From Candidatus Polarisedimenticolia bacterium (GTDB lineage Bacteria > Acidobacteriota > Polarisedimenticolia > Gp22-AA2 > AA152): a stretch of 33,709 nt of DNA. Each line of letters begins with the position of its first letter. The first letter of the stretch is position 1. The translations under genes were made by a program, and so were the position numbers. This document shows positions 4,584-33,421 of the stretch, in pieces. Location: the NCBI GenBank assembly GCA_035764505.1, contig DASTZC010000187.1:1-33709 (forward strand), read 5' to 3'. The notes under the pieces are model-generated. The model made no database searches and was not told the origin of the DNA. It saw nothing but the letters and a program-made list of their open reading frames with translations.

Positions 4584-4892
4584 ATGAGCGCAAGACCGGC
4601 AAAGCTGGAGGAATCCGAAGTCAAGGAAGGGCTGCAAGGCCTGTCGCAGTGGAGTCTCTCGGGCGGGAAGCTGCACCGCGAATACCGCTTCGGATCGTTC
4701 GTGGAGGCGTTCGGGTTCATGGCCAGCGCCGCGCTGGTCGCGGAGTCGATGAACCATCACCCCGAGTGGTCGAATGTCTACCAGACCGTGAAGATCGACC
4801 TGACGACGCACGACGCCGGGGGGATCACCGAGAACGATCTGGAGATGGCGAGGCGGTTCGAGAAGCTGGCGGGACAGCGCGCGGAGCGCTGA
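4584..4892 (+). CDS. phhB: 4a-hydroxytetrahydrobiopterin dehydratase (PCD/DCoH family)
   Basis: This cytoplasmic enzyme dehydrates 4a-hydroxytetrahydrobiopterin during pterin recycling for aromatic amino acid hydroxylases. At 102 aa it has the normal family length. The signature runs ESMNHHPEWSNVY, with a second His at TTHD and an acidic residue at ENDLEMA. The double His (NHHPEW) is the pterin-binding site. A purine-rich ribosome site precedes the ATG. No phenylalanine hydroxylase is in the window, so the partner enzyme is elsewhere, or the protein acts in another pterin role such as molybdopterin metabolism. The tryptophan degradation genes 12 kb away suggest a general capacity for aromatic amino acid use, but the two loci are not physically linked. 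Confidence 0.93.
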   Translation: MSARPAKLEESEVKEGLQGLSQWSLSGGKLHREYRFGSFVEAFGFMASAALVAESMNHHPEWSNVYQTVKIDLTTHDAGGITENDLEMARRFEKLAGQRAER

Positions 4893-28463: not shown

Positions 28464-28769
28464 TCAGATCTGGACCAGGATGTCCTGTCCTTCCTGCTTC
28501 ACCGCGAAGCAGGGAGTCGAAAGATTTGGGTTGGTCAGGCACTTTCCCGAGCCGACCTCGAATTCGAACGCATGCCAGGGGCAGGTGAGGACGGAGCCGC
28601 TGAGGGACCCCTCGCCGAGGGGGCCGCCGCGATGGGGGCAGGCATTGCCGAGGGCGTGCACGCGACCCCCGATATTGAACAGCGCAATCGAAGCTCCGCC
28701 AATCTCCACGCACCGGGAGGATCCCTCGGGGAGATCCGAGATCGATGCGACTTTCACGAAATCAGCCAT
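28464..28769 (-). CDS. Rieske [2Fe-2S] ferredoxin
   Basis: This is a 101-aa soluble Rieske protein with CPHRGG and CPWHAFEF holding the two Cys and two His that bind the cluster. It resembles NirD-type and dioxygenase-system ferredoxins. It is the first gene of the minus-arm operon, with a GGAGGG ribosome site 5 bases before ATG 28769 and an extended -10 promoter upstream. None of the enzymes encoded downstream needs a Rieske partner: HAAO is an extradiol dioxygenase and KMO uses NADPH directly. Its target may lie elsewhere, or it may keep the HAAO or tryptophan dioxygenase iron reduced (inference). Confidence 0.9.
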   Translation of the reverse strand: MADFVKVASISDLPEGSSRCVEIGGASIALFNIGGRVHALGNACPHRGGPLGEGSLSGSVLTCPWHAFEFEVGSGKCLTNPNLSTPCFAVKQEGQDILVQI

Positions 28770-28887: not shown

Positions 28888-30162
28888 TTACCGCGCCGGG
28901 GCGAGGAGGGGAGGCAGCGGTCCACAGCGTTTTTCCAGCTCGGCCCGGTAGCGCACGCTGAAGAGGCGCTGCATCCCCTGACGCATGGTGCGGACGATCT
29001 CGGGGACACCTTCCTGGAGCGGCTCGCCAAAGGCGACGCTGTGCAGCGGGTCGCCATTCCCGTTGCGCAGCGTCAGGCTGGAAAGGAGATTTTCCCGGGC
29101 CGCCTCCTGGGAAGCGACCATGTCGGCAGGCCGGGAGGGGGCCGCCAGGAACTCCTTCGACACGGCCGCCGCGAACAGGGAAGGGAGATCATCCACCGCC
29201 TTCGGTCCGGGCTTGCCGGCGGGCGGCGGCGGGGAGAGCGCATCCACCGACACCGAGCAGGCATAGCCGCGGGTGATCACCGTGATGAGGCCGTCCTCCG
29301 CGAAAGTGGCCGATAAGTCAGGTCCCTCGTAGACCAGCGAGCGCGCTTCGCCGACGGCGGCGCCTTCATCTGGAGCGGCCAGCTGTGCCCCCTCGGCGGC
29401 TCCCGTCACGGTCTCGTCGTCGGCCGCGGCATCCTTGCCTGCCCGCAGCGCGGAGCGCTGGGGTGACGCCTCGGCGGCGGCCGCCGATTGCTTGCTCAGC
29501 GGCGCCGTGGGCGCGGCTACCATGCCGGGCCGCGGAGCTGTCTTCGCCTTCGCGCCGGCGCCATCGGCGTAGTCGAGGGAATCGGCGATCTCGACCTTCT
29601 CATCGCGCGCCGGCTCATCTTGTCTCTTCATCCTCTCGTCGAGCTCCTGCCGGCGGGTCCCTTCCTTGTCGTAGGCGACGAACCCTCCGGCGGCACCGGC
29701 ATCGGGAGGAGCGGACGGCTGCAGGTCGGCCTTCTTGTTCTCCTCGGTACCGACGGGGGCCGCCTCGGGGGGCGGGCTCGAAGTGGAGACATCCAGATCG
29801 GCGGCACTCCTTTGGGGAAGCTCATGGCGCCATCCCAGATAGGCCACCGTCACCAGGATCAACGCGGCCGCGGTGGCCAGTGGGAAAGGTGATTTCCAGA
29901 AGGAGACCCTCGGGCGAATGGCTCGCGCTTCCGATCCGCTTTCGATGCGCCGGCGGATTGAAGCCGCGAGCCCGGCGGGAGCCGCCGCGACCGCCTCCTC
30001 GCCCACGGCCGCGCTCATCCGGCGGATGTCGTGCAGGACCTGGCGGCAGTCGGGGCAGGAGCGCAGGTGCTCCTGTACCTGTACCGACTCCTCGGAAGAG
30101 AGCTCGCCGTCGGAAAAAGCCGAGATCTGCTCGAGCGGATGGGCGCCTGGCTCGGATTTCAT
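28888..30162 (-). CDS. Anti-sigma factor with zinc-finger domain
   Basis: This is a 424-aa single-pass membrane protein. The cytoplasmic N-terminus has the zinc anti-sigma motif His32-x3-Cys36-x2-Cys39 (HLRSCPDC). A membrane helix follows at about 93-111, then a long Ala/Pro/Glu-rich linker and a periplasmic domain (about 300-424) that I do not recognise. Anti-sigma factors of this type hold an ECF sigma factor inactive until a periplasmic signal causes release. The ATG at 30162 overlaps the stop of the sigma gene (ATGA), a common arrangement. The frame continues upstream to 30534, but that part overlaps the sigma gene and is excluded. The large C-terminal domain is a likely sensor and is much bigger than in minimal family members. 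Confidence 0.88.
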   Translation of the reverse strand: MKSEPGAHPLEQISAFSDGELSSEESVQVQEHLRSCPDCRQVLHDIRRMSAAVGEEAVAAAPAGLAASIRRRIESGSEARAIRPRVSFWKSPFPLATAAALILVTVAYLGWRHELPQRSAADLDVSTSSPPPEAAPVGTEENKKADLQPSAPPDAGAAGGFVAYDKEGTRRQELDERMKRQDEPARDEKVEIADSLDYADGAGAKAKTAPRPGMVAAPTAPLSKQSAAAAEASPQRSALRAGKDAAADDETVTGAAEGAQLAAPDEGAAVGEARSLVYEGPDLSATFAEDGLITVITRGYACSVSVDALSPPPPAGKPGPKAVDDLPSLFAAAVSKEFLAAPSRPADMVASQEAARENLLSSLTLRNGNGDPLHSVAFGEPLQEGVPEIVRTMRQGMQRLFSVRYRAELEKRCGPLPPLLAPAR

Positions 30163-30764
30163 CGCTCCCCCCCGCCCAGGCAGTCCCTCAATGCGGATCG
30201 GGCGCGGGCCAGACGCGACCGGATCGTCCCGATCGGCACGCCCAGCGCGTCGGCCATCTCTTCGTAGGAGAGCTCTTCCCCGTCGCGCAGGGCCAGGGCG
30301 CTGCGCCATAGAGGAGGAAGCCGGTCGAGGCAGCGCGCCAGCCGCTCGCCGATCTCCTTCTGCTCCAAAGCGTGCAGCGGCGTCGTCGCGTCGGTTGCCT
30401 CCGGCGGAACGAACATCTGCTCGGTCGAGACTTCGAGGGGACGCGAGGCGCGGCGGATCCGCTCGCCGCGGGAGCGCAGGTGATTCAGGCAGCGGGTCAC
30501 GGTGATGCGATGCAGCCAGGTCGACAGCCGGCATTCGCCGCGATAGCCAGACAGCGCCTGATAAGCCGTCATGAAGACCTCCTGCGCCATGTCCTCGGCA
30601 TCCTCCTTCCGCCGCAGAATCCTCCAGGCGACCCGCCAGACGGTGGAGAGGTGTGCGCGGACGAGCAGATCGAAGGCGGCGGTATCCCCCTCCCGGGCCC
30701 GCGCAACCAGCTCCTCCTCGCTCTCCGGCCTTTCCACGGGTCGAAGTTCCATCGCCTCCAGCAT
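30159..30764 (-). CDS. ECF-family RNA polymerase sigma factor
   Basis: This is a 201-aa sigma-70 group 4 (RpoE-like) factor. Region 2 (about 20-85) holds the DAEDMAQEVFMTAY motif that binds core polymerase and the -10. Region 4 (about 135-192) contains the helix-turn-helix ELSYEEMADALGVPIGTIRSRL, which recognises the -35. It should direct a small regulon under control of the adjoining anti-sigma factor. The ATG at 30764 lacks a clear ribosome site. ATG 30752 (GGAGG 2 bases upstream) is a less likely alternative. An ECF-type promoter lies upstream on the same strand, which implies autoregulation. The gene diverges from the VIT/VWA gene. Confidence 0.93.
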   Translation of the reverse strand: MLEAMELRPVERPESEEELVARAREGDTAAFDLLVRAHLSTVWRVAWRILRRKEDAEDMAQEVFMTAYQALSGYRGECRLSTWLHRITVTRCLNHLRSRGERIRRASRPLEVSTEQMFVPPEATDATTPLHALEQKEIGERLARCLDRLPPLWRSALALRDGEELSYEEMADALGVPIGTIRSRLARARSALRDCLGGGER

Positions 30765-30813
30765 GACATGCCCGGATTCAAAAGTCTTTCAGGACCCTTG
30801 CCGCACCAGGTTG

Positions 30814-30838
30814 GACAGGAAAGGGGCGCCGGAGTTCC
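30814..30838 (-). promoter_or_regulatory. ECF-type promoter of the sigma/anti-sigma pair
   Basis: On the minus strand GGAACT (30838-30833), 16 bases and GTC (30816-30814) match the RpoE-type pattern. The last bases before GTC are CCT, as in the divergent promoter. The start is expected near 30807, about 43 bases before ATG 30764. Confidence 0.55.
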
Positions 30839-30858
30839 CGCGCGTCAAAAAATTGTTC

Positions 30859-30883
30859 GGAACTTTGGGCCGCGACGCCTGTC
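30859..30883 (+). promoter_or_regulatory. ECF-type promoter of the VIT/VWA gene
   Basis: GGAACT (30859-30864), 16 bases and GTC (30881-30883) form an ECF promoter with the same spacing and the same CCTGTC -10 as the divergent one. The start is expected near 30890. The AGGAGG ribosome site at 30915 and the GTG at 30926 follow. Confidence 0.55.
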
Positions 30884-30925
30884 GATCAAGGCGTGCAGCA
30901 ACGAACCCTGTCACAGGAGGCCCCC

Positions 30926-33421
30926 GTGCGAATGAAGCTTTTCCTGGCAATGGTGCTCGCCCCGTTCCTGCTACTTGGCTCGATTTCGCCGTCCCCTCCA
31001 TCTCCGGTCCGGAGCGATGCAATCGAGGAATCGCCTCGTCCGGAAAATCTTCCGATGCCTCACGACCTCCGCCCGGATCCCCGCCGCCCTGCCACGAGCG
31101 ACAGTCTTTCGCCTTTTCTCCTGGCGGGCACGCGGGTGCGGACCTGGATTACCGGCCCGGTGGCCCACGTCGAGGTCACCCAGACCTGGGAGAACAGTAA
31201 CGACCAGCCGGTCGACGGCCTGTACATTTTCCCCCTTCCCGAGAATGCCGCCGTCAATGACATGACGCTGACCATCGGCGAGCGCACCATCCAGGGCGAG
31301 ATGCGCCGACGGGACGAAGCCCGCCAGGCCTACGAGCAGGCCCGCAGGGAAGGCCGCACGGCCGCATTGCTGGATCAGGAGCGCCCGAATGTCTTCGCTC
31401 AGCGCGTCGCCAATCTCGCCCCGCGCCAGCGGATCGAGGTGAAAATCGCCTTCGATTACGAAATCCGCTGTGCCGAGGGGGCGTGCGAGTATTCCTTCCC
31501 GACGGTCGTAGGGCCGCGCTTCATTCCGGCGCGCCAGACCGATCCCGGCGAAATCGCGCCGCCGATCGTCTCCGAGGGGAGCCATGCGCGCCAGCGTTTC
31601 TCGATGACGGTGAGCCTCGAGGCCGGAGTCGAGGCCCATGAGCTCCAGTCCCCGTCGCACCGCATCTCGATCACCCCTTTCGGAAAGGGAGGTCAGCGGG
31701 TCACCCTGGCGGCAGAGGAAAAGGAGATCCCGAATCGCGACTTCAAGCTGCGCTGGAAGGTGGGGAGCGGAGAGCCCGAGGTGGGCGTGCTGGCCTGGCG
31801 CGACCCAGGCGGGTCCGATCCGTCGGGTGTCTTCACCTTGATCCTGCAGCCTCCCGCCGATTTCGACACCGCATCCGCGGCGCCTCGCGAGCTGGTCTTC
31901 GTCCTCGATTGCTCCGGCTCGATGTCGGGCGTGCCGCTGGAGGCTGCGAAAGGAGTGGTGCGGCGGTCCCTGGGCGCCGTGCGCCCCGAGGACACCTTCC
32001 AGATCCTGCGCTTCTCAGACGCCACCTCCGGGATGGGAAGCCGCCCGCTCGCTCCGACGCGCGACAACCTGCGCAAGGCGCTCGCCTACCTCGATTCGCT
32101 GCAAGGCGAAGGAGGCACCGAGATGATCCTGGGAATCCGCGCCGCGCTCGATTTCCCCAAAGACCCGCGCCGCCTGCGGATCGTGGCGTTCCTGACCGAC
32201 GGCTACATCGGCAACGAGAGCGAGATTCTCAAGGAAGTCCGCTCGCGTCTGGGGGAAGCGAGGCTGTTTGCTTTCGGCATCGGCTCCTCGGTGAACCGCT
32301 ACCTCCTGGAAGGGCTGGCGGAAGAGGGACGAGGCGAAGCGGCCTTCCTGGGACCGCGCGAGACGCCCGATGAGATGGTCCAGCGCTTCACCCGGCGCAT
32401 TGACGCGCCGGTCCTTACCGATGTCCATATCAGTTGGCGCGATCTGGAGGTGACCGACACGATTCCAGAGCGGGCCCCCGATCTGTTCGACGGGCAGCCG
32501 CTGATCCTGCAGGGCCGCTACCGACGCGCCGGGACGGGAGTCGTGGAGGTGGAGGGCTTCAGCGGGGGGAGCCGCCGGATCTACCGGCGCAACGTGACGC
32601 TGCCGGAGAAGGCCGAGGGCCACGAGGCGCTCGGCAGGCTGTGGGCCCGGGCCCGCATCCACCAGCTGGAGCGTGACCTGCACGACGGCCCGAGCCCGTC
32701 GGTGGTCGAGTCGATAACCCGGCTGGGGCTGGGACATCACTTGATGACGCCCTATACGTCGCTGGTGGCGGTGGACAGCGAGATCAGCAACTGGACCGGC
32801 TCCTCCGCGCAGGTCGGCGTCCCGGTCGAGATGCCCGAAGACGTTTCCTACCAGGGAATCATCGGCCGCGGCGATGCTCCGGTGGCCGCGCGCCAGACAA
32901 TGGCGGTGTCCCCTGGGGTGTCGGGAGGCCTTCTCTCGGGATTCGGGCTGGCCAAGGACTCTCCGGCCGCCGGCTCGCTGCCCCCTGCTCGCAACGCCGC
33001 GCCGATGGAGGAGAAAGCAAAGCCCGCCTCGCAGGAAGGGGATCGAGCGCCGGGAAACAAGAAGGAAGCGCGGGATGAAGAGAGCACCAAGGCTCCGGGA
33101 TTCACCCGCCTGACGATCTACGAGGACGGCTCCGACGGAATCGCGCTGGAGGGGGACGGCAGCCTGTATCGTCTGCGGGGCGTTCAAACCACTTTCCTGA
33201 AAAAGATCGACGCGTCGGAGATGGAGGAGGTTCGCAGGGCACTGACCCAGGCGGGGACGGATCGGTGGCGCGGCGGCGGTGGGGGACCCCGAATCGTCCT
33301 GGACGCGGGGAAGGTGACGCGGGTCATCGGGCTCTCGAGCTCCGATCCCTCCGTGCAAGCCCTGGCCGCCTTGCTGCGCTCCCTGGCGAGTCTCCCTGGA
33401 AAAGCATCAAGCTTTCCGTGA
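30926..33421 (+). CDS. Exported VIT and von Willebrand factor A domain protein
   Basis: This is an 831-aa protein with a signal peptide or lipid-type N-terminal helix (MRMKLFLAMVLAPFLLLGS). A VIT domain (about 60-190, ITGPVAHVEVTQTW and GLYIFPLPENAAV) and a von Willebrand A domain from about 322 follow. The metal-ion-dependent adhesion site DCSGSMS has Asp328, Ser330 and Ser332. The C-terminal third is low complexity, then a beta-rich module from about 710. Such inter-alpha-trypsin-inhibitor-like proteins are thought to work at the cell surface. I start at GTG 30926, 5 bases after AGGAGG. GTG 30893 and ATG 30932 are alternatives. Its promoter matches that of the divergent ECF sigma gene, so it is probably a direct target. 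Confidence 0.9.
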   Translation: MRMKLFLAMVLAPFLLLGSISPSPPSPVRSDAIEESPRPENLPMPHDLRPDPRRPATSDSLSPFLLAGTRVRTWITGPVAHVEVTQTWENSNDQPVDGLYIFPLPENAAVNDMTLTIGERTIQGEMRRRDEARQAYEQARREGRTAALLDQERPNVFAQRVANLAPRQRIEVKIAFDYEIRCAEGACEYSFPTVVGPRFIPARQTDPGEIAPPIVSEGSHARQRFSMTVSLEAGVEAHELQSPSHRISITPFGKGGQRVTLAAEEKEIPNRDFKLRWKVGSGEPEVGVLAWRDPGGSDPSGVFTLILQPPADFDTASAAPRELVFVLDCSGSMSGVPLEAAKGVVRRSLGAVRPEDTFQILRFSDATSGMGSRPLAPTRDNLRKALAYLDSLQGEGGTEMILGIRAALDFPKDPRRLRIVAFLTDGYIGNESEILKEVRSRLGEARLFAFGIGSSVNRYLLEGLAEEGRGEAAFLGPRETPDEMVQRFTRRIDAPVLTDVHISWRDLEVTDTIPERAPDLFDGQPLILQGRYRRAGTGVVEVEGFSGGSRRIYRRNVTLPEKAEGHEALGRLWARARIHQLERDLHDGPSPSVVESITRLGLGHHLMTPYTSLVAVDSEISNWTGSSAQVGVPVEMPEDVSYQGIIGRGDAPVAARQTMAVSPGVSGGLLSGFGLAKDSPAAGSLPPARNAAPMEEKAKPASQEGDRAPGNKKEARDEESTKAPGFTRLTIYEDGSDGIALEGDGSLYRLRGVQTTFLKKIDASEMEEVRRALTQAGTDRWRGGGGGPRIVLDAGKVTRVIGLSSSDPSVQALAALLRSLASLPGKASSFP

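Follow-up and report, generated by a model that had tools for sequence, protein, structure and literature searches.

Back-to-back predicted promoters tie a probable autoregulated ECF sigma/anti-sigma switch to a neighbouring VIT/VWA protein gene in Acidobacteriota

An ECF sigma factor gene and a gene for a predicted exported VIT/VWA protein point away from each other in a 33.7-kb stretch of DNA from a Candidatus Polarisedimenticolia bacterium (the window, 33,709 nucleotides), and raise the question of whether the sigma factor controls both itself and its neighbour. It is proposed that the sigma factor very probably switches on its own gene and the neighbouring exported-protein gene via matching back-to-back promoters, an arrangement that, judged from genome comparison, is kept across Acidobacteriota relatives even where the sigma and VIT/VWA genes have moved apart. 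With high confidence, the locus is predicted to be an autoregulated ECF sigma/class I zf-HC2 anti-sigma switch driving exported proteins. Its features are as follows.

28888..30162, minus strand: class I anti-sigma factor gene (Pfam zf-HC2 1.5e-9), in ATGA overlap with the sigma gene
30159..30764, minus strand: ECF sigma factor gene, RpoE/AlgU-like (P0001; Pfam Sigma70_r2 7.8e-18, r4_2 1.5e-15)
30814..30838, minus strand: predicted ECF promoter of the sigma/anti-sigma pair (-35 GGAACT 30838-30833; -10 GTC 30816-30814)
30859..30883, plus strand: predicted ECF promoter of the VIT/VWA gene (-35 GGAACT 30859-30864; -10 GTC 30881-30883)
30915..30920, plus strand: Shine-Dalgarno AGGAGG of the VIT/VWA gene
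30926..33421, plus strand: gene for a VIT + VWA protein, predicted exported (Pfam VIT 1e-32, VWA_3 1.7e-15)

The 161-bp gap (30765-30925) exactly fills the interval between the sigma start codon (30764) and the GTG at 30926, which is preferred as the best VIT/VWA start and lies behind AGGAGG; the mechanical open reading frame begins at 30893. A Rieske-type ferredoxin domain is encoded at 28467-28769, downstream of the anti-sigma gene and on the same strand.

The sigma factor (201 aa) has sigma2 and sigma4 domains only (Sigma70_r2 at 34-100, r4_2 at 140-192), and its gene is co-located with an anti-sigma gene; both traits assign it to the ECF (group IV) sigma factors, which are typified by sigma2/sigma4 only, a co-transcribed anti-sigma and autoregulation (PMC8103513). 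The 4-bp ATGA overlap between the two genes is kept in nearly all orthologous loci. PDB matches of the sigma factor are AlgU/SigH and E. coli RpoE, whose -35 element is GGAACTT (PMC8103513). It would work like RpoE but is not filed as RpoE: its NCBIfam matches (PRK11922, 1.9e-45; RpoE, 3.2e-40) are both under cut-off, and it scores 138.2 bits against the 236.15 bits of the RpoE equivalog TIGR02939.

The anti-sigma factor (P0002) carries HLRSCPDC, an instance of the Hx3Cx2C signature of class I anti-sigma factors (PMC7406223), in a zf-HC2 domain scoring 38.2 bits (cut-off 22.2), and is assigned to class I (ASDI) with sigma inhibition as a prediction. This N-terminal H-x3-C-x2-C domain is followed by one TM segment (about residues 93-111), a long Pro/Ala-rich exported linker and a C-terminal domain of about 150 aa, in which two Cys (GYxC ... 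RCGP) are invariant in the alignment of window-type systems. The N-terminal domain, the single TM segment and the overlap with the ECF gene are shared with the ASDI factors in general; what sets the window protein apart is its exported C-terminal domain, for which neither Pfam nor PDB sequence searches gave a convincing match. The preliminary description had credited the anti-sigma factor with a large unknown sensor domain, and zf-HC2, one TM segment and an exported part without Pfam match bear this out. Other orthologous anti-sigmas end in a different domain (e.g. L215-L218 and L223, read by eye), and at least two unrelated-looking C-terminal types appear to occur as sensor domains among orthologous systems. 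The exported domain would sense periplasmic stress. In one further locus (L042), a run of about 100 N (4749-4847) breaks the anti-sigma gene and the adjoining sequence resembles a different gene, so this locus is uninformative on the sensor domain.

Both strands of the gap carry GGAACT, exactly 16 bases and GTC, with CCT preceding each GTC, at positions that we confirmed as first described. Transcription is predicted to start at about 30805-30808 for the sigma/anti-sigma pair and at about 30889-30892 for the VIT/VWA gene. The two sites are the only matches to GGAACT-N14-18-GTC in the window, whose shuffles give an expectation of 0.94 and at least two matches in 20 of 100 cases; a loose match on both strands of the gap was found in 1 of 20,000 shuffles. 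The statement that the pair is unlikely by chance is thus sound for its position within the gap, while the number alone establishes nothing. Likewise, the genome scan for GGAACT-N16-GTC called for earlier returned 50 matches, mostly chance, and genome-wide motif counting was dropped as uninformative because per-genome totals were no higher than those of a reversed-pattern control. Since two matches in the window are unremarkable and plain matches number 50 in the genome, the case rests on position and conservation; what counts is where the motif lies, not how often it turns up. GGAACT-N13-SCTGTC, the extended form, is present six times genome-wide, two of these being the pair and one lying 40 bp before another exported-protein gene. 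Several extended-motif matches were discarded for lying inside coding sequence, among them G000:C123, G002:C248 and G003:C50, which fall in one homologous gene.

A class-wide search found the divergent sigma/VWA order in five more loci, from genomes G002 (L079), G003 (L078), G010 (L081), G012 (L112) and G026 (L082); L112 and L042 are one stretch, record CP070706 of Acidobacteriota bacterium. All five have GGAAC-N17-GTC on both strands, so that the expectation that the motif is kept wherever gene order is kept came through in 5/5. When the six gaps were each dinucleotide-shuffled, a both-strand pair came up in 0-6 of 20,000 cases. When all 5-mer/3-mer dyads were counted, GGAAC-N17-GTC alone was present in 12/12 strand sequences; in letter-shuffled gaps the highest count for any dyad was 3-5 of 12. 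Pairwise gap identity, inflated by the gap penalties used, was not relied on. Chance occurrence, or plain sequence conservation among close relatives, could appeal to the 50 genomic matches and the 20/100 window shuffles, but it is contradicted by these conservation tests, by the recurrence of the pair in several families at 26-58 bp ahead of start codons, and by the motif being absent from paralogs and kept by unlinked genes; we regard it as extremely improbable.

Sigma orthologs were found in 19/41 class genomes, and 18 of them form one clade (SH-aLRT 99); the other (L214 from G032) was left out because it lies outside the supported clade. The strict motif is upstream of 13/18 orthologs, and the other five are preceded by variants one step away (GGAACA, GGAACC or a spacing of 17), so that the motif or a near variant, which would supply an AAC-containing -35 element, is upstream of 18/18. 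The claim that the sigma factor drives itself gains support from this as predicted autoregulation. Among 27 paralogous ECF genes from four of the same genomes there are no strict upstream motifs and two loose matches (strict motif, 13/18 versus 0/27, p=1e-7; counting the outlier L214 as well gives p=5e-8). This contrast bears on whether the promoters, though real, are driven mainly by another ECF sigma of equal specificity, with the local sigma contributing. Many ECF genes are present in the genome (a search with the sigma factor gives about 20 hits at E <= 0.001, most of them further ECF sigma factors), which makes cross-recognition possible, yet the 27 paralogs lack such a promoter. G006 has a further target gene (P0004, below) with the motif, and no close sigma was found in it at the cut-off used, but this genome is 75% complete and its sigma gene may be missing from the assembly; conversely G024, 96% complete, has no sigma and also no motif before its VIT/VWA gene. 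A different main driver is therefore unlikely in our judgement, and recognition by this particular sigma factor would be the simplest reading. What comparative genomics brings out is the paired promoters, their conservation, their sigma-clade specificity and the co-regulated genes.

Six other VIT/VWA proteins (43-46% identity) are not encoded adjacent to a sigma gene. The strict motif is still upstream of four of these six genes (G004, G008, G029 and G031); of the other two, G007 has the sigma factor and a VIT/VWA gene without motif, and the second is that of G024. In all, 10/12 close VIT/VWA members have the strict motif versus 0 of about 25 distant paralogs (p=2e-7). A motif that survives the loss of synteny is the strongest argument that the sigma-VIT/VWA link is regulatory and not purely positional; on sequence evidence, the link asserted in the preliminary description is supported by 5/5 other loci and outlasts the loss of gene order in 4/6 cases. 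In two unlinked VIT/VWA proteins (L083:4070-6445 and L084:4005-6512) the C-terminal side holds a Plug domain of the TonB-dependent receptor type (Pfam 1.7e-10 and 6.2e-6; L083 reaches the contig end). In other Acidobacteriota classes some VIT/VWA genes have an ECF gene upstream, and a GGAAC-N-TCTA element lies upstream of 7/18 VIT/VWA genes versus 0/26 controls, a lead only, since the motif was picked after looking.

The VIT/VWA gene is not the only candidate target. In the window's own genome the extended motif lies 40 bp upstream of P0004 (L151:1566-2504, G000:C171), which encodes a protein of 312 aa whose start resembles a signal peptide; a Pfam search gave no family above cut-off and only a sub-threshold DUF7918 match. 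GGAACT-N16-GTC is upstream of the P0004 family in 13/13 examined members (the window's genome and 12 further genomes), so the VIT/VWA protein is not supported as the "main output" it was first taken for and is better predicted to be one of two or more targets. The search found no P0004 in G002, G003, G010 or G012, which indicates that regulon content varies. By hand count, 18/26 class-wide sites of GGGAACT-N16-GTCYAA and 9/15 sites of GGAACT-N16-GTCTMA precede sigma, VIT/VWA or P0004 genes, and several of the remaining sites precede genes with exported-looking products; together with P0004, the latter suggest a small, envelope-directed regulon. In kind, this would be an ECF/anti-sigma system for which a small regulon is newly recognised.

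The VIT/VWA protein consists of a putative signal peptide (by eye), VIT, VWA, a disordered linker and a C-terminal domain of about 100 aa. VIT followed by VWA, both above Pfam cut-offs, constitutes the inter-alpha-trypsin heavy chain-like core. The VWA motif reads DxSxS...T...D, and its ion-binding residues D339, S341, S343, T409 and D436 are invariant in nine relatives. In the predicted model (mean pLDDT 72.9, pTM 0.63) VIT and VWA are confident and resemble inter-alpha-inhibitor heavy chain 1 (ITIH1 6fpy, TMt 0.71), and the C-terminal domain is separate. Model and motif suggest ion-dependent binding at the envelope, and from the ion-binding motif a metal-dependent adhesive or scaffolding role there is likely. 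The protein, in which no motif for sorting or anchoring was identified, would be located at the cell surface. It shares the VIT + VWA core with the marine proteobacterial sortase target TIGR03788 (residues 80-653 match at 468.7 bits) but falls under that model's 551.65-bit cut-off and is not assigned to it, a linker and another C-terminal domain replace the model's end, and its predicted control is by an ECF sigma. Pfam and PDB sequence searches with the C-terminal domain gave no convincing match. Modelled alone (33098-33418; pLDDT 82, from 3 sequences), this domain has Mago nashi as its best PDB match (Z 9.1, 97 aligned, rmsd 3.6; next unrelated fold Z 5.6), a likeness that may be only a similar arrangement because the Foldseek match is weak (E 5e-3, TMq 0.45). 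A domain common to the anti-sigma and VWA C-termini was considered and rejected (hhalign probability 0.2).

A fused gene in another Acidobacteriota class opens a further reading. Directly after an ECF gene in G076, and in ATGA overlap with it, one ORF (L249:925-4083) encodes zf-HC2 (7.8e-10), a TM segment, CarboxypepD_reg, VIT (1.9e-36) and VWA (4.6e-18), along with a weak PDZ match under cut-off. This fusion, a single case from a draft assembly whose nearest relative (G064) is cut by a contig end, supports a functional tie between anti-sigma and VIT/VWA as predicted from their sequences, and with both joined in one protein the VIT/VWA part may contribute to sensing as well. In the E. coli sigma-E system, RseB acts on RseA. 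By comparison, the VIT/VWA protein could be a sensor part too, a sigma-controlled feedback partner acting on the anti-sigma outside the membrane. The fusion and the divergent linkage kept in six genomes of several families speak for such a partner; that only one clear fusion is available and that the window's anti-sigma and VWA proteins have no detectable common domain speak against it, and we hold it to be possible but doubtful. Slightly more tentative still is the specific form in which the VIT/VWA protein would be an ion-dependent adhesive feedback co-sensor that reports envelope or surface state to the anti-sigma and is fused to it in some lineages.

We retain the autoregulated switch with exported targets as the preferred reading. 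In the resting state, the membrane anti-sigma, with zf-HC2 inside and the large domain outside, would hold the sigma factor; release would follow upon a signal from the exported side, both signal and release step being presumed. The freed sigma factor would read GGAACT-N16-GTC on both strands of the gap, yielding more sigma and anti-sigma in one direction and more exported VIT/VWA protein in the other, and elsewhere in the genome it would drive at least one more exported protein (P0004). An ECF sigma, a co-transcribed membrane anti-sigma, positive autoregulation (predicted here) and a promoter of the -35 GGAACTT class are common to this system and to E. coli RpoE (sigma-E)/RseA and P. aeruginosa AlgU; it differs in its phylum, in a zf-HC2-type anti-sigma with an unrelated exported domain, and in a predicted regulon that is very small and made up of exported proteins, with VIT/VWA adjoining. 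Our literature search, mostly without subscription papers, found no description of an ECF sigma-VIT/VWA link.

In an Acidobacteriota lineage represented here mostly by metagenome-assembled genomes, the proposed circuit gives the sigma factor a testable regulon, defined by a promoter sequence and three families of targets. Bacterial VIT/VWA proteins, which are widespread but obscure in function, would become connected to a named signalling pathway, and the fusion of anti-sigma and VIT/VWA provides a direct way into what they do. If the co-sensor reading were true, it would amount to a novel type of signal input into ECF switches.
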